Positions 2,528-42,481 of a stretch of 64,000 nucleotides of DNA are shown here, in pieces. The DNA lies in NCBI GenBank assembly GCA_009777535.1, contig WRLP01000013.1:1-64000 (forward strand). The letters are read 5' to 3'. The translations under genes and the position numbers were made by a program. The notes under the pieces are model-generated. The model was not told where the DNA came from. It was given only the letters and a program-made list of their open reading frames with translations, and did not search any database. Position 1 is the stretch's first letter. Each line of letters opens with the position of its first letter. This DNA is from Treponema sp. GTDB taxonomy: Bacteria > Spirochaetota > Spirochaetia > Treponematales > Breznakiellaceae.

Positions 2528-2883
2528 TGCCCAGGAGAAGAACGCCGGAAGAACGGTATAAATACAATATCCGCAAGCAACAAAAATCTTTAGAAGAATT
2601 TGCAGAACATGAGATTGAATGGGCGGGGGACTTAATACGCTGGTATGGAATTGTAAAAAAAGATATGCCCGATGATGAGTACCGCTCTTGTGCGTACTTT
2701 TTGAATAAAGAATTTCAAAAAAAACCGGGTTCATTGTCCTTGCTTTATACAATGTATATTCAATGGTGGCAGGAACTACCACAAGTTACAAAAGAAAATG
2801 CTTTTGATTTATTGGCATACCGCTTTAAGACGTATGCGGCAGTATTAAAGACTGGGGGCTATGATGGAAAACCTGATTGGTGA
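2527..2883 (+). CDS. Hypothetical phage protein
   Basis: The 118-residue protein starts with the ATG that shares one base with the upstream stop. It has a very basic N-terminus (MPRRRTPEERYKYNIRKQQ), then an acidic and aromatic helical body (EHEIEWAGDLIRWYG) and a short Trp-rich segment (IQWWQEL). No known motif is recognised. Its end overlaps the primase start by 23 bases, so it probably belongs to the same transcript. A role in DNA handling would fit the basic N-terminus and neighbour, but this is only a guess. Confidence 0.5.
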   Translation: MPRRRTPEERYKYNIRKQQKSLEEFAEHEIEWAGDLIRWYGIVKKDMPDDEYRSCAYFLNKEFQKKPGSLSLLYTMYIQWWQELPQVTKENAFDLLAYRFKTYAAVLKTGGYDGKPDW

Positions 2884-4252
2884 TGAAAGTGTCTACTTGC
2901 GGATTAACCAGCTAAAAAGCGGGAAAATACAGTTTACTGATTCCACGAATGCAGAAAGATTTGCCAAAGAGCATGGCAAAGATATACGGTATTTCCCTGC
3001 CTGGAAAAAATGGCTGGTGTGGAACGGTAAACGATGGGAAATAGACGAAGGTGCGGCACTGGTGCAAACTAAAGGGCTGGAAACAATCAGGAACCTTTAC
3101 GATGAATTACTAAAGACAAGCGACTATCGGGAACGAAACGATATAGAAAGTTATGCAAGGGTATGTGAAAGCACTAAAAGACGTGAAACCCTTATCCGTA
3201 ACGCTCAATGGATTAAACCGTTACACATAACAAGCGAAGATTTAGACCCTGACCATTGGCTGTTGAATGTGCAAAACGGCGTTATTGAAATGAAAAAAAC
3301 GGAATTTCGGGAACATAGGCAAGATGATATGATGACCAAAATTGCCAATGTTGAATATGACCCAAACGCTGACTGTCCGCTGTGGAAACAGTTTATCCGT
3401 GAAATTATGAATTATAAATCTGAATTGATTAACTTTTTGCAGACCGCCGCAGGGTGGGCTTTGACTGGCGATATTTCAGAACAGACTATGTTTATTCTGT
3501 ACGGCTCCGGTGCAAACGGTAAATCAACTTTTTTGAATACCATCATGTATATTTTGGGTGATTACGCTACGGCAACGCCTACAGAAACTTTTATGAAAAA
3601 GAACGGCGACCAAACAACCAATGATATAGCCCGATTAAGGGGAATACGGTTTGTTACCACTACCGAAGCGGAGCAAGGGCGTAGGCTGTCCGAACCGCTT
3701 ATTAAGCGGATTACTGGCAATGACCAAATGATGGCTCGTTTTCTGTACGGGGAGTTTTTTTCGTTTACCCCTACATTTAAGATTTTCATGGCTACTAACC
3801 ATAAGCCTGTTATCAAGGGTACTGACTACGGTATTTGGCGGCGAATTAAACTGATACCTTTTACAACCAGAATACCTGAAGAAAAACAGGATAAAGACCT
3901 TGAATTGAAATTGCGAAGTGAAGCAAGCGGAATTCTTAACTGGCTTTTGGAAGGGACTAAACGCTGGTTACAAGAGCGGCTTAATGCTCCCGATGAAATA
4001 CTAAATGCAACTGATGAATACAGGGAAGAAATGGACGTTATAGGAAATTTCCTAAGTGATAAATGTCTGATTGAAAAGGATTTGACAATCCGTATCCGGG
4101 AACTATATAAAGCATATTCGGACTGGTGCGAAGATAACAAGGAACACGCCGTGCCGGAACGGTTTTTTACTTTGCGGCTTAAAGAGATGGGTTTCCAGCA
4201 ATGCAGAACGTCCGAGGCTCGTTACTGGTCGGGGGTTGGGCTTCGCCGTTAA
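2861..4252 (+). CDS. Phage/plasmid primase-helicase, P4/D5 family (SF3 helicase)
   Basis: The 463-residue protein starts at the ATG at 2861, just behind a CTGGGGG ribosome site. The N-terminal 150 residues match the D5_N-type region that precedes the helicase (LNVQNGVIEM and VEYDPNADCPLWKQF are typical). The superfamily 3 helicase core follows, with Walker A GSGANGKST near residue 215, a TTEAEQG segment in the Walker B area, motif C FKIFMATNHKP near residue 312, and the arginine-rich GIWRRIKLIPF. In phage P4-like elements this protein unwinds and primes replication at the element's own origin. The enzyme has no clear primase domain at the N-terminus, being shorter than P4 alpha (about 777 aa), so it may act as helicase only. 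The gene lies directly upstream of a repeat-rich gene-free region that may be its origin. Confidence 0.9.
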   Translation: MMENLIGDESVYLRINQLKSGKIQFTDSTNAERFAKEHGKDIRYFPAWKKWLVWNGKRWEIDEGAALVQTKGLETIRNLYDELLKTSDYRERNDIESYARVCESTKRRETLIRNAQWIKPLHITSEDLDPDHWLLNVQNGVIEMKKTEFREHRQDDMMTKIANVEYDPNADCPLWKQFIREIMNYKSELINFLQTAAGWALTGDISEQTMFILYGSGANGKSTFLNTIMYILGDYATATPTETFMKKNGDQTTNDIARLRGIRFVTTTEAEQGRRLSEPLIKRITGNDQMMARFLYGEFFSFTPTFKIFMATNHKPVIKGTDYGIWRRIKLIPFTTRIPEEKQDKDLELKLRSEASGILNWLLEGTKRWLQERLNAPDEILNATDEYREEMDVIGNFLSDKCLIEKDLTIRIRELYKAYSDWCEDNKEHAVPERFFTLRLKEMGFQQCRTSEARYWSGVGLRR

Positions 4253-4680
4253 TTTTTTTTACCCTTGCGGGTTTTGGGGTGGTTCCCCCGTGCGCCCCTT
4301 TGGGTTGGGTCGGCAAAACAGCCGACAGGAAAAACTTCTCTCTCGAAGTCTATTAAAAGTATGCAAGAGTAGGCTTTTTTTGTGTTTTGTTATCTCGGAA
4401 AATTATCTGAAAAATGTGCCTGGTCATAAAAATAAATAAAACATTGCGAAAAGTAGCAAAAAATAAAGCCACGCACACGCCCCCCTTGCTTAAAAAAAAT
4501 CTGCCCTTGTTTTGTTATGACATATCGGCTTGTCATTTATGACAGGTAAAATCAGGTGTTTTGTCATCAAAAAAGCGGTTTTTTTTCAATCTATACTTAT
4601 ATTATCTTTTTATTTTTTTTTCTATGACAAGTATGACAAAGATAAATTATAAAAGTATGTATATGGTAGCCTTATAGAGA
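4253..4680. other. Candidate replication origin: TATGACA repeats in AT-rich DNA
   Basis: This gene-free stretch follows the primase-helicase gene. It starts with a GTCGGC/GCCGAC hairpin at 4309-4326, which may end the upstream transcript. Farther on, the heptamer TATGACA occurs at 4516, 4538, 4623 and 4632, and TGTCAT, its inverse, at 4531 and 4562. Between them lies a run of about 50 bases that is almost only A and T (4570-4622). Iteron-like repeats beside an AT-rich segment next to an SF3 helicase gene are the expected make-up of a P4-type origin. The role is inferred. Confidence 0.4.
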
Positions 4681-4719
4681 AGTCTGAAAATCGGGGGTGG
4701 ATTGTTGTCAGCGTGTCAT

Positions 4720-5780
4720 CATCAGGCCGCCGCCGTAGGCGGCGGGCAGCAAGAAACGCCTGGAGCAAGTACCGCTGTTTTCATGCTTTCACTTTTCGAT
4801 AATGCTTTAGGGCGGGTCTTGCGTAGGGCGGTTCTTGCTGCTGTGATAATGCTCTGTCATCAATGCCTGCCTACCTGCAAGGTGGGCGGGTCTTTGGGAG
4901 TGCGTAGCAGCAAATATCGCTCGGCTTCATTGTTGCGGGGGATTTCGGATTGGTGTCTTGAAAATGCCTCACCTTACGACCATGCCGCCAGTCCGTTGCT
5001 ATCGAAGATAGCGGCGGTCTGGCGGTTTTTATCAGGATAATGTAACGGCTACGGAGCGGGAGAAAATGCCTGTCGAAGCCGTGGGGTGCTTGGGGATAAT
5101 GCTTTTCGCAACGGGGGTTTTTCTATCAAGTAATGCCTTGTCTACCAGTTCCCAATTGCACACAATCGCTGTTGTATACGACGTTCCAGCCCACCTTATA
5201 AAGCAAACCGTAGGTTTGCGGTGGGCTGGAATGTGGGTGATGGAGGCGTGGGAATGGAGCGAAGCGGAATGACCTAGCCGACTGAACCCCTAGCCGCCTT
5301 GCGGCGTAGCGTATACATTCGGTTGTGTGCTGTTGGGGCTTTTCGGGTATGTTCTGCGGGTAAATTAAAAACCCCCGTTGCGTGGGATAATGCTTTGGGG
5401 TAATGTTTTTACTTTGCGAACCCCACGGTGCTTTTGAGATAATGCCGCCGATTAACCCGATAAGTTTTTTGAAATTATGTTTTACTTTTTCCGATATGGC
5501 TTATGGGGTTAAGCGGCGGTCTTTGGAATGGGTCTTTTGTTTATAGGCTCTGCGGGGGGCGGGGTGCCGGGGTTTTTATGCTGTTTTTGGGGTGCTACCC
5601 TTTACCTACTTGCAGGGGCAAGGGCGGCGTGAGGATTAGCCGCCTTTGACCCTGACCCGACCGGCAGGACGCCGGGCGGGTTGTGAATAAATGCCTTTTG
5701 ATAAATGCAGCATAAAAAGGGCGGCGTGAATGATTTGAGAAAATTGCGGAGTGCAGCATAGCGGAACGGAGCAATTTTGA
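4720..5780. ncRNA. Large structured noncoding region (candidate ornate RNA) in the phage element
   Basis: About 1.06 kb between primase and integrase carries no credible gene but many strong, nested inverted repeats. On the plus strand they are: 8 bp with a GTA loop at 4727-4745; 10 bp (with G-T pairs) at 4866-4890, enclosed by an 8-bp pair 4835-4842/4906-4913; an 18-bp hairpin at 4985-5025; 12 bp plus 7 bp with a GTA loop at 5184-5231; a 16-bp long-range pair 5107-5122/5367-5382 enclosed by a 9-bp pair 5079-5087/5420-5428; a roughly 20-bp pair 5445-5464/5500-5519; and hairpins at 5620-5646, 5656-5680 and 5740-5778. The pentamer AATGC recurs 11 times in the linkers. Giant phage RNAs such as GOLLD and ROOL have this kind of size and setting, but I cannot assign it to either. 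Strand is undecided. Confidence 0.5.
4985..5030 (+). terminator. Strong GC-rich hairpin followed by T run
   Basis: CCGCCAG (4985-4991) pairs with CTGGCGG (5019-5025), and inside, 11 more pairs close on a GAA loop with one T-T mismatch between the two stems. Five T residues follow at 5026-5030. This is a textbook intrinsic terminator for plus-strand transcripts, or one domain of the structured RNA described around it. It could end read-through from the primase gene or separate two parts of the region. Confidence 0.5.
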
Positions 5781-5825
5781 CCTTTCTCCCTCTTTTCTAT
5801 TTCAGTTTGTTTTGTGCCATTATAA

Positions 5826-5839
5826 CCCCCTTTCGGGGG
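5826..5839 (-). terminator. Short hairpin behind the integrase gene
   Basis: CCCCC (5826-5830) and GGGGG (5835-5839) form a 5-bp hairpin with a 4-base loop, 12 bases beyond the integrase stop. The following bases on the minus strand (TTATAATG) are only partly T-rich, so this is a weak intrinsic terminator at best. Confidence 0.35.
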
Positions 5840-5851
5840 CTGTAAAACTCT

Positions 5852-7180
5852 TTACGCTGAACAGGCTATCTTGTTTCCCATTTTTTTGTATGTAACAAGT
5901 TTTGGTGTTTCCGGCAATAGCCCTGCAAAAGTTTCTTTTTGGGCGGAATGGATTAGTTCCCTGTCCCCTACTGTTTCGTGGTCAGCGTAATGGGCAAGCA
6001 TTACATCGGTTAAATGTCCGGTTTGCGATTTCAAAAGTTTTTTGTCCAGTTTTCTAATCATGTAGGAAGTATAGAAATGCCGCCAACTGTGAAAATCATA
6101 TTTCGCCGCTTCCTCTTTAGAAAAACCTATTTTTATTAACGCTTCACGAAGCCCCCTGCCAAAGTGCTGCCCCTGCATAGGAACTTTTTTTCTGGTTGTT
6201 GACCAAAAGATAAATCTTTCAGGTGTTTTACTCCACGGATTTTGATTGCCCATTTCTATAAGCGCATACATCAAATCGGGGAAAGGTATCTCTACCGTTC
6301 TGGTTTTATTGTTTTTCGGCGGTTTCCTTCCGTCCTCTTTATTCCATGAGCCGTCAACATAAATACAATCAGCCCCTAAATTCTTAAACTGCAAGGCTAA
6401 AATTTCCCCGTTCCTCATTCCGGTAACCGCCGACAGCATATTCGCTAGTTTAACCCTGTCATCTTCCCACACAGTACGAAACACAGCAGCGGCTACAGTA
6501 GGGGTTAAAATCGACCTTTTTCGTTCTTCCCCCGCAAACATGGTATGTCCTCTGGTCGGGTCTTTATCTATATGCCCTTTGGAAAATGCCCAACGGAGGG
6601 GTTTCGTTCCGGCTTTTATAACGACATTTTTCCGTGAAGCCGATAAATCCTTTTCCCCCATGTGGGTAATAAAAGCGTCAATATCCGCTGCCGTTATATC
6701 TCCCAAAAACCGCCCATTGAAAAACGGCTCCCAATACAGCGAAATCGCCCCGCCCTGTATAGAGCAATGGCGGCGGTGTATGCCGTGAGCTTTGCGTAAT
6801 TTCTCCTGAATGTAGGGGGATTTGTCCCAATCCCAAAAGGTAGCCAGGTAGCCGATAAAATCCTGTGCTTGCTGTGTGCCAGCCATGACAAAACTTTTCA
6901 GCCAGCCCTGCCGTTGGAGTTCGGCAATCATGGTTTCGGCATCGTCTGGGTCTTTAAGGTTTTTGACGGTTTCCCGCAGGGATAGGTTATGTACTCTGAC
7001 GGTGTTCTGCTTTTGCGGGATGCCGTCTCGAAGCCATTGGAAGGCTTTTCTTACCGCTTCTTCTTCTGTTTTCTGCTTGGTTGAGATTGCTGGTAGCTGT
7101 TTGCCGTTTTCATCGTTAAACTGAACCAGATAATAGGGGCGGTCGGCTCTTTTATAAACCGAAAATGGGTAGGCGTTCAT
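5852..7180 (-). CDS. int: Tyrosine site-specific integrase
   Basis: The protein has about 442 residues; I chose the ATG at 7180 over the GTG two codons upstream (7186), since an AGGTG ribosome site fits either. The N-terminal half holds an arm-binding and core-binding (SAM-like) region (PYYLVQFNDENGKQ, then DITAADIDAFI). The catalytic domain shows the first Arg in SAVTGMRNGEILAL, the H-x-x-R box in HSWRHFYTSYM, a later His in KSQTGHL, and the nucleophile Tyr in DVMLAHYADHE. Tyrosine recombinases cut and rejoin att sites. The gene sits at the end of the element with its start toward tRNA-Phe, consistent with integration at that tRNA. No excisionase is seen nearby. Confidence 0.93.
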   Translation of the reverse strand: MNAYPFSVYKRADRPYYLVQFNDENGKQLPAISTKQKTEEEAVRKAFQWLRDGIPQKQNTVRVHNLSLRETVKNLKDPDDAETMIAELQRQGWLKSFVMAGTQQAQDFIGYLATFWDWDKSPYIQEKLRKAHGIHRRHCSIQGGAISLYWEPFFNGRFLGDITAADIDAFITHMGEKDLSASRKNVVIKAGTKPLRWAFSKGHIDKDPTRGHTMFAGEERKRSILTPTVAAAVFRTVWEDDRVKLANMLSAVTGMRNGEILALQFKNLGADCIYVDGSWNKEDGRKPPKNNKTRTVEIPFPDLMYALIEMGNQNPWSKTPERFIFWSTTRKKVPMQGQHFGRGLREALIKIGFSKEEAAKYDFHSWRHFYTSYMIRKLDKKLLKSQTGHLTDVMLAHYADHETVGDRELIHSAQKETFAGLLPETPKLVTYKKMGNKIACSA

Positions 7181-7328
7181 ATACACCTCAAACCCGACTT
7201 TAGACTGTAACAGGTTTTACTGTCAGTTCTACTGTCGGTCGCGTTTGAAATGTTACTTTCGCCCGTTGTCGGGTAGAAAGAAATCCCATAATTCCTTACT
7301 ACATAAGGAATTAGGAAACTCTGTGAAC

Positions 7329-7401
7329 TGCCACCTCGGAGAATTGAACTCCAGACACGCAGATTTTCAGTCTGCTGCTCTACCAACTGAGCTAAGGTGG
7401 C
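7329..7401 (-). tRNA. tRNA-Phe (GAA), probable integration target
   Basis: Read on the minus strand, the 73-nt gene folds into a full cloverleaf. The acceptor GCCACCT pairs with AGGTGGC, the D arm is GCTC/GAGC, and the anticodon stem GCAGA/TCTGC closes the loop CTGAAAA with anticodon GAA. The T arm is TGGAG/CTCCG with loop TTCAATT and one T-G pair. The discriminator is A and CCA is not encoded. The 3' end points toward the integrase, so the element's att core is expected in the T-arm/acceptor half. The gene looks intact and functional. Confidence 0.95.
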
Positions 7402-7410
7402 TAAATAACG

Positions 7411-7981
7411 GCGCCGCGTCAAGCGGCGTTATTGCCAAAAAAATCAAAACAGCCCAGGCACCAATATAGGTAACCACGGCCGGTAATGCAAGCCTGCCTT
7501 TAGGCAGGCGACAGTGCCGCTTCGAAAAACGGCAGCGTCCCAAAGCAAACCCTCCCTTTGGGAATTAAGGTTCATACAAAGAACCAGGTAAAAGCGCCCC
7601 GTCAAGGGGCGTTGTCCCGAAAAAATTATAACGGCCCAGGCACCAATATAGGTAACCACGGCCGGTAATGCAAGCCTGCCTTTAGGCAGGCGACAGTGCC
7701 GCTTCGAAAAACGGCAGCGTCCCAAAGCAAACCCTCCCTTTGGGAATTAAGGTTCACACAAAGAACCAGGTAAAAGCGCCCCGTCAAGGGGCGTTGTCCC
7801 GAAAAAATCATAACGGCCCAGGCACCAATAAAAGTTACTACGGCCGCTAATGCAAGCCTGCCTTTAGGCAGACGACAGTGCCGCTTCGAAAAACCGCAGC
7901 ACCCCAAAGAAAACCCTCACTTTGGGAATGAAGGTTCACACAAAGAACCATATAACGGCGCCGCTTCGAAAAACGGCAGCA
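7411..7981. repeat. Tandem array of three 182-bp units built from hairpins
   Basis: The same 182-bp unit is repeated head to tail three times (starting near 7411, 7594 and 7776), with a short, internally shortened fourth piece to about 7981. Units 1 and 2 are almost identical and unit 3 is more diverged. Each unit holds five small hairpins: CGCCCC-GTCAA-GGGGCG, GCCTGCC-TTTA-GGCAGGC, TGCCG/CGGCA, CCCAAAG/CTTTGGG and GGTTC/GAACC. Unit 1 has a compensated base-pair swap in the first hairpin (G-C for C-G). The open frames seen across it (93 codons, twice) are artefacts of the repeat. It resembles clustered REP/BIME-type palindromes rather than CRISPR. The following 289 bases (7982-8270) hold only the leader region of the next gene. 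Confidence 0.85.
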
Positions 7982-41209: not shown

Positions 41210-42481
41210 TTAGTCGTCAGGTTCACCTGGTATTTCCGTATCTATCCACATAGCATATAAATAAGTGCTTTCGGTAATATTTAAAAAATTACCGTCCCAT
41301 TGATTCCGGAAACTGCCGTTATCAAAAAACCAACCACCGAATGTGGAAGCCCCAAGTTCTGGTAGGGGGGCGTCTGGCAACATAACAGTTTCGCCAGACT
41401 TCATAATTAAGATTATTACATCATTAAATGAACCGTCTACGCGACCACCGTTAAGCACGAATGTTACAGTGAATGTTTCTACCAGTTCACTAGGCGCCCC
41501 ATCACCGCTCTGTTTATCGAGTGGGGACAAAGCTGCTATGGTTATACCAATACCTGTTCCGCTGTGCATTATCATTTTATCATCACTTATGGCAAAACCA
41601 AATGTTCCTACATCAGTGCCGCCGAATTTGAGTGTTACAGTACTGCCAGATACAGTTATATCGTAAGTGGTACCATCACTCGAAATCAATTTCCCGGCAG
41701 ATGTTATTTCCAGTGATACCACAAAATTCATATTTTCTTGTTTGCCCCATTTTCCAACAAGTGCAGACATATCACCTTCACCGCCGCCGTTATTGCTGCC
41801 AACTTTTACAAAAGGTGAAATTAAAGCTAAAGATGCCATGAACCCTGTTGCGTTGGTAAAAGTCATTTCACCGTTGCTAATGGAATAGACAAATGACGCA
41901 ACAGTAGAACCGTACACTTTAATTTCCACGGTATTACCTGAAACAGATATTTTGTCAAAATCGCCTCCGCTCTGACCTGTTGCGGTAAATGTACCATCGG
42001 ATGTAATTTTGAAAACCATATCCGATGGGTTTGCTTTTGAAGCCCATTCTCCGACTAATTCTGAGGGAATGTTGCCATTTGTGCCGCCGTTATTGCTGCC
42101 AACTTTTACAAAGGGTGAAGCTAAAGCTATAGTTGCCATGAAACCTGTTGCGTTGGTTATAGCCAATTCACCGTTGCTGATGGAATAATTAAACGCTGCA
42201 ATAGTAGAACCCTGCATTTTAATTTCTACGGTATTACCTGAAACAGATATTTTATCAAAATCGCCTCCGCTCTGACCTGTTGCGGTAAATGTACCGTCAG
42301 ATGTAATTTTGAACATCATGACCGAAGGGTTTGATTTTGAAGCCCATTCTCCGACTAAAGCCGTGGGTATGCGGCCACCACCGCTACTGCTGCCGCTTCC
42401 GTCACTACAGGCAATCATGCTAAATACCATCATGCTCACTACAATGAAACCCAAAATTCCATAAATCCTGTTCTTAAACAT
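41210..42481 (-). CDS. Repeat-built lipoprotein with InlB-type C-terminal repeat
   Basis: The 423-residue protein has a lipoprotein signal (VSMMVFSMIAC, lipobox Cys at about residue 25), then a Ser/Gly linker and three successive domains of about 95-100 residues of the type LVGEWASKxNPS...FKITSDGTFTATG...VEIK...SFxYSISNGE. Domains 1 and 2 are almost identical at DNA level (300-bp unit, matching near 41784 and 42084) and domain 3 is diverged. The C-terminal 75 residues have the InlB B-repeat/Listeria-Bacteroides pattern (TFVLNGGRVDG to GGWFFDNGS and YLYAMW). It should sit on the outer face of a membrane. Function unknown. The gene lies between the two direct repeats. Confidence 0.88.
   Translation of the reverse strand: MFKNRIYGILGFIVVSMMVFSMIACSDGSGSSSGGGRIPTALVGEWASKSNPSVMMFKITSDGTFTATGQSGGDFDKISVSGNTVEIKMQGSTIAAFNYSISNGELAITNATGFMATIALASPFVKVGSNNGGTNGNIPSELVGEWASKANPSDMVFKITSDGTFTATGQSGGDFDKISVSGNTVEIKVYGSTVASFVYSISNGEMTFTNATGFMASLALISPFVKVGSNNGGGEGDMSALVGKWGKQENMNFVVSLEITSAGKLISSDGTTYDITVSGSTVTLKFGGTDVGTFGFAISDDKMIMHSGTGIGITIAALSPLDKQSGDGAPSELVETFTVTFVLNGGRVDGSFNDVIILIMKSGETVMLPDAPLPELGASTFGGWFFDNGSFRNQWDGNFLNITESTYLYAMWIDTEIPGEPDD

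Follow-up and report, generated by a model that had tools for sequence, protein, structure and literature searches.

To our knowledge, bacteria and phages have very few RNA families as large as the one described here, and two of the large phage RNAs, GOLLD and ROOL (Rumen-Originating, Ornate, Large), are still without a function known to us. GOLLD is encoded by phages and prophages, exceeds 800 nt, and has an elaborate structure in which one part is better conserved and another variable; ROOL is large, phage-encoded and structured, with a variable linker (PMC12286853). Both form RNA-only nanocages, that of GOLLD being a 14-mer.

Here we describe a structured noncoding RNA region at positions 4690-5785 (+ strand, about 1.1 kb, ends approximate) of a 64-kb stretch of Treponema DNA, the whole of which is called the window below. 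Like GOLLD, this RNA lies in a prophage, is longer than 800 nt and has better conserved and variable parts; like ROOL, it is large, phage-encoded and structured, with a variable part. It differs from GOLLD in host group and gene context, and from ROOL in being longer and lying outside a tRNA island, while it matches the covariance model of neither; assembly into a cage of the GOLLD or ROOL kind is, for the Treponema RNA, an argument by analogy.

Neither the window nor 20 homologue loci matched GOLLD, ROOL or any other large family when searched with the Rfam covariance models, and the GOLLD and ROOL models gave no match to window 4250-5860 at E values up to 10. GOLLD, ROOL and all other Rfam families were therefore rejected as the identity of the region, which looks like a new ornate phage RNA family. 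A first-pass annotation of this DNA had suggested a possible giant noncoding RNA with stems typical of GOLLD and ROOL; the long, nested, phage-encoded structured RNA is upheld by its compensatory evolution, but membership in GOLLD or ROOL is not. Other Rfam results were one sub-threshold sraL match and a TD-2 RNA (RF03162) in the leader of one homologous prophage RNA (L090, 498-596, - strand).

Results

The region is flanked by genes for a D5/P4-type primase and a tyrosine integrase and lies at a tRNA-Phe gene, which agrees with the prophage context first assigned to it. RNAs of the GOLLD and ROOL kind had been noted to occur often near tRNAs; here there is this single tRNA-Phe gene nearby and no tRNA island, and the gene is likely the integration target rather than a member of an island. 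The features of the locus, in window coordinates, are as follows.

2861-4252, + strand: D5_N/P4-type primase-helicase gene, the conserved upstream neighbour (Pfam and PHROGs)
4515-4720, no strand assigned: AT-rich leader in which ATGACA occurs four times and TGTCAT three times; a putative operator or promoter, or a set of iterons
4726-4745, + strand: 5' GC hairpin (CCGCCGCC GTA GGCGGCGG), from sequence and predicted fold
4746-4841, + strand: hairpin H1 (GCAAGU..CCGC / GCGG..UCUUGC), an inverted repeat
4864-4890, + strand: hairpin H2, with compensatory changes in homologues
4984-5027, + strand: hairpin H3 (CCGCCAG..CTGGCGG), an inverted repeat
5079-5087, + strand: outer long-range stem, 5' arm (GCCGTGGGG), pairing with 5420-5428
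5107-5122, + strand: inner long-range stem, 5' arm, a perfect repeat pairing with 5367-5382
5160-5328, + strand: attC-like inner module whose 5' core box is degenerate (ACACAAT .. GTTGTGT), from repeat matches
5367-5382, + strand: inner long-range stem, 3' arm, pairing with 5107-5122
5420-5428, + strand: outer long-range stem, 3' arm (CCCCACGGT), pairing with 5079-5087
5445-5519, + strand: local hairpin (CCGCCGATTAACCC..GGGTTAAGCGGCGG), an inverted repeat
5566-5725, + strand: 3' domain closed by GGGGTTTTTATGCTG / CAGCATAAAAAGGG, an inverted repeat
5610-5687, + strand: 3' twin hairpin with loops GUGAGGAUUA and AGGA, from covariation and covariance model R1
5740-5779, + strand: 3'-most hairpin AAAATTGC..GCAATTTT, a possible terminator kept in about ten loci
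5852-7186, - strand: tyrosine integrase gene (Pfam and PHROGs)
7329-7401: tRNA-Phe gene, near the integrase

The region had been described as lacking a credible gene, and its two + strand ORFs and one minus-strand ORF (59 aa) are indeed not conserved in homologues. In tblastn comparisons with homologues, these ORFs gave short matches only, many of them interrupted by stops, and a coding explanation was rejected on the grounds that the ORFs are spurious and unconserved.

Folded as a 1000-nt RNA, the region has a z-score of -9.41, and none of 20 shuffles was equally stable. Among 250-nt segments sampled across the window, the nine inside the region gave z-scores of -2.0 to -6.3; the mean of the 105 taken elsewhere was -0.6, and of the four among these that fell below -3, two overlap tRNA genes. 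The inner long-range stem, the 16-bp pair singled out in the first-pass annotation, is 100% complementary over 16 nt, the outer stem does enclose it, and at least eight more strong stems were found within 4726-5779, in line with the ten or so strong inverted repeats reported. The loop context CCGTAGG is likewise common to two hairpins, in the 4733 and 5208 regions; as a conserved motif it was rejected, the two being merely C(GNA)G loops that read CCGAAGG, CCGCAGG or CCGGAGG in homologues. There are 18 copies of the octamer GATAATGC in the window, where 3 are expected, and five of the 18 (window 4798, 4845, 5095, 5386 and 5438) lie within the RNA, between hairpins.

The segment enclosed by GCCGTGGGG and CCCCACGGT was aligned from 13 loci over 81 model pairs, in helices picked by an RNA energy model on that same alignment; 94.4% of the cells were paired and 32 pairs carried compensatory changes, a result as good as which was reached by none of 500 shuffles, and slid controls were 49-58% paired. 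In the 13 homologues, the helix corresponding to the 16-bp stem has its arms separated by about 330 nt and 11 of its 16 pairs covarying, and the inner stem of the window shows five compensatory changes relative to the closest homologue, G016. For the outer stem, 96% of the cells are paired across the 13 loci with almost no sequence variation, and this helix is backed by sequence conservation, not by covariation.

Outside the long-range stems, 17 of the 20 pairs of the twin hairpin covary in 14 loci, the window included, so that varying stems carry two near-invariant loops, GUGA(U)GGAUUA and AGGA. Compensatory changes were also found in H2 (8 of 11 pairs in 12 loci), in H3, which is retained in G016 with one such change, and in the closing stem of the 3' domain, which has two relative to G016. 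The H1 element recurs in six other places (L043, L132, L136, G009, L144 and L103), and the local hairpin at 5445-5519 has no counterpart in G016. Over 102 hand-aligned pairs, with the L box helix left out of the counts, the window differs from G016 by 14 compensatory changes and one broken pair, and G016 folds with a z-score of -7.62 into the same nested topology. Among the pairs that are mostly Watson-Crick, 24 cells are G-U and 10 are A-C, an excess that indirectly favours an RNA read from the + strand. Compensatory base changes exceed the controls, as expected of a structured noncoding RNA.

When 199 related genomes were searched at the DNA level, several (G016, G012, G009 and others) matched the region colinearly, and there were many further matches confined to the inner segment. 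The primase gene is found in 35 of 200 family members. Among primase-linked loci with at least 800 nt downstream in one termite-gut Treponema family, 35 of 47 carry at least two elements of the RNA downstream, compared with 2 of 46 non-Treponema loci. The covariance model of the twin hairpin matches 21 of the 200 family genomes, and in a phylum-wide search its strong matches were restricted to the termite-gut Treponema family. By their GTDB names, the hosts are mostly termite-gut Treponema metagenome-assembled genomes, where "termite-gut" is read from isolate names. The RNA is also present in two closed genomes of 3,855,671 and 4,059,867 bp, which we take to be those of the cultured T. azotonutricium ZAS-9 and T. 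primitia ZAS-2, respectively; the larger has four primase loci, each with related noncoding DNA downstream. The loci are at about 1.974, 2.038, 2.123 and 2.185 Mb of G078:C1 in the larger genome and about 0.422 Mb of G068:C1 in the smaller.

Only pieces of the 3' end of the RNA were found in G002 and G045. There are few full-length alignments because many homologues are cut by contig ends within the RNA, and since modules are gained, lost and permuted between loci, there is as yet no single full-length consensus. Metagenome contigs (L042, L044, L046, L050, L318, L319 and others) end inside or beside the RNA unusually often, perhaps owing to shared modules or hairpins. A DNA search of phage GenBank records returned nothing beyond short chance matches, the exact twin-hairpin pattern was absent from IMG/VR, and we found no earlier report of this RNA in the open-access literature.

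The leader contains seven copies of ATGACA/TGTCAT in 241 nt, where 0.14 are expected from the window (about 50 times the average density), and by eye many homologue leaders share TATGAC-n-TATGACA followed by a TATATA-type sequence. These repeats suggest a phage-controlled promoter or origin. It is improbable that the region is mainly a phage replication origin, in which a replication protein would bind ATGACA iterons and the DNA hairpins after them would act in single-stranded form, as its seven iteron-like copies and the adjoining primase-helicase gene might imply; the iterons precede the folded region, with none inside it, and two nested helices over 240-340 nt, the G-U excess and near-invariant loops on changing stems are all better accounted for by an RNA. 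The two are also compatible, with an origin in the leader and an RNA downstream of it. We also think it unlikely that, instead of being an independent RNA, the region is a structured 3' UTR of the primase mRNA or a cis-acting element that regulates either the primase or the convergent integrase. Its location downstream of the primase on the same strand, and convergent with the integrase in the window, would suit such a role, but a promoter-like leader with conserved ATGACA repeats stands between the primase and the RNA, the integrase does not adjoin the RNA in most homologues examined, and known cis-elements are far smaller and simpler.

A heap of dispersed palindromic repeats without RNA function, which the first-pass annotation had named as one outcome that would overturn its proposal, is very improbable and largely refuted: the inner ~170 nt do match attC-like repeats on contigs C26 and C5 and in many relatives, but this inner part alone is dispersed, the rest of the region has no significant second copy in the genome, and the framework outside the inner module covaries.

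The module held within the long stem of the RNA differs between homologues. In most it is a module of about 300 nt; the window, G016 and probably G030 have an attC-like one instead, which matches repeats elsewhere in those genomes. Window 5178-5312 shares about 89% identity with repeats that its own genome carries on C26 and C5. This identity and the paired R and L boxes resemble an integron attC site. The module differs from such a site in that its 5' core box has AAT instead of AAC, in G016 as well, and in that it has no cassette ORF and lies within a conserved RNA stem. The AAC and GTT triplets of attC R boxes are thus not both present in the inner module: the boxes read ACACAAT / GTTGTGT in the window and ACATAAT / ATTATGT in G016, whereas the C26 repeats have AAC and GTT. 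Where an AAC box would stand, both the window and G016 read AAT, while the stem is kept and extended. We read the inner module as an attC-like element apparently converted into an RNA part, although the conversion may have run in the opposite direction, from RNA part to attC-like element.

The C26 and C5 repeats start with RYYYAAC-like and mostly end with GTTRRRY-like sequences, and often bracket small ORFs; arrays with intervening small ORFs span 1010-5655 of L056 (G000:C26:33000-38673) and 1649-10460 of L057 (G000:C5). A tyrosine recombinase near the C26 repeats is related to integron-integrases, has no match to model positions ~171-241, and scores 196.6 bits, below the TIGR02249 integron-integrase cut-off of 265 bits. 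Of 25 genomes from the same genus, none passed this cut-off. Many termite-gut Treponema genomes have similar recombinases. Together with this recombinase, the C26 and C5 arrays are possibly an undescribed integron-like system. No integrons were reported for T. primitia and T. azotonutricium in a published survey (PMC3607928), in agreement with the sub-threshold score of the recombinase.

Discussion

The region is conserved in position and structure, evolves by compensatory change and encodes no conserved protein, and we are highly confident that it encodes a functional structured RNA. Overall, it is probably best explained as a ~1.1-kb structured noncoding RNA of a Treponema prophage, built on a multi-domain framework. 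The RNA would be read in the direction of the primase, starting just past the ATGACA leader and ending at the AAAATTGC/GCAATTTT hairpin. Its framework would comprise the 5' hairpins, the two nested long-range stems and the 3' domain with the twin hairpin, and its inner apical module, which in the window resembles an attC-like element, would be exchangeable between lineages. Upon induction, the phage may turn the RNA on via an ATGACA-type operator, and the near-invariant loops on freely varying stems could serve as docking or kissing surfaces.

The Treponema RNA may share a broad kind with the GOLLD and ROOL phage RNAs. By analogy with what is known of those two (PMC12286853), it might assemble into an RNA-based particle, with the variable module as a peripheral or enclosed part; we offer this assembly tentatively, as a real possibility that we would stop short of calling probable. 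That the locus represents a new class of giant phage RNA, combining an RNA-only particle, inner-module exchange and a domesticated attC-like recombination hairpin, is more doubtful.

With the Treponema RNA, the few families of this size gain another, apparently unrelated, that covaries strongly, has modular inserts and keeps a fixed position in the phage genome beside a replication gene. If our reading of the attC-like module is correct, it would be a rare case of an RNA part derived from a DNA recombination hairpin, and a new giant-RNA class, if true, would connect phage RNAs to the unsolved question of how attC-type hairpins arose. The presence of the RNA in two closed genomes, presumably of cultured termite-gut spirochaetes, makes its expression, assembly and deletion testable.

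Two further repeats were seen in the window. A 182-nt unit is repeated three times in tandem (93% matches) at 7411-7950, adjoining the tRNA-Phe gene and outside the integrase, and 1.9 copies of a 300-nt unit (88% matches) lie at 41783-42358.
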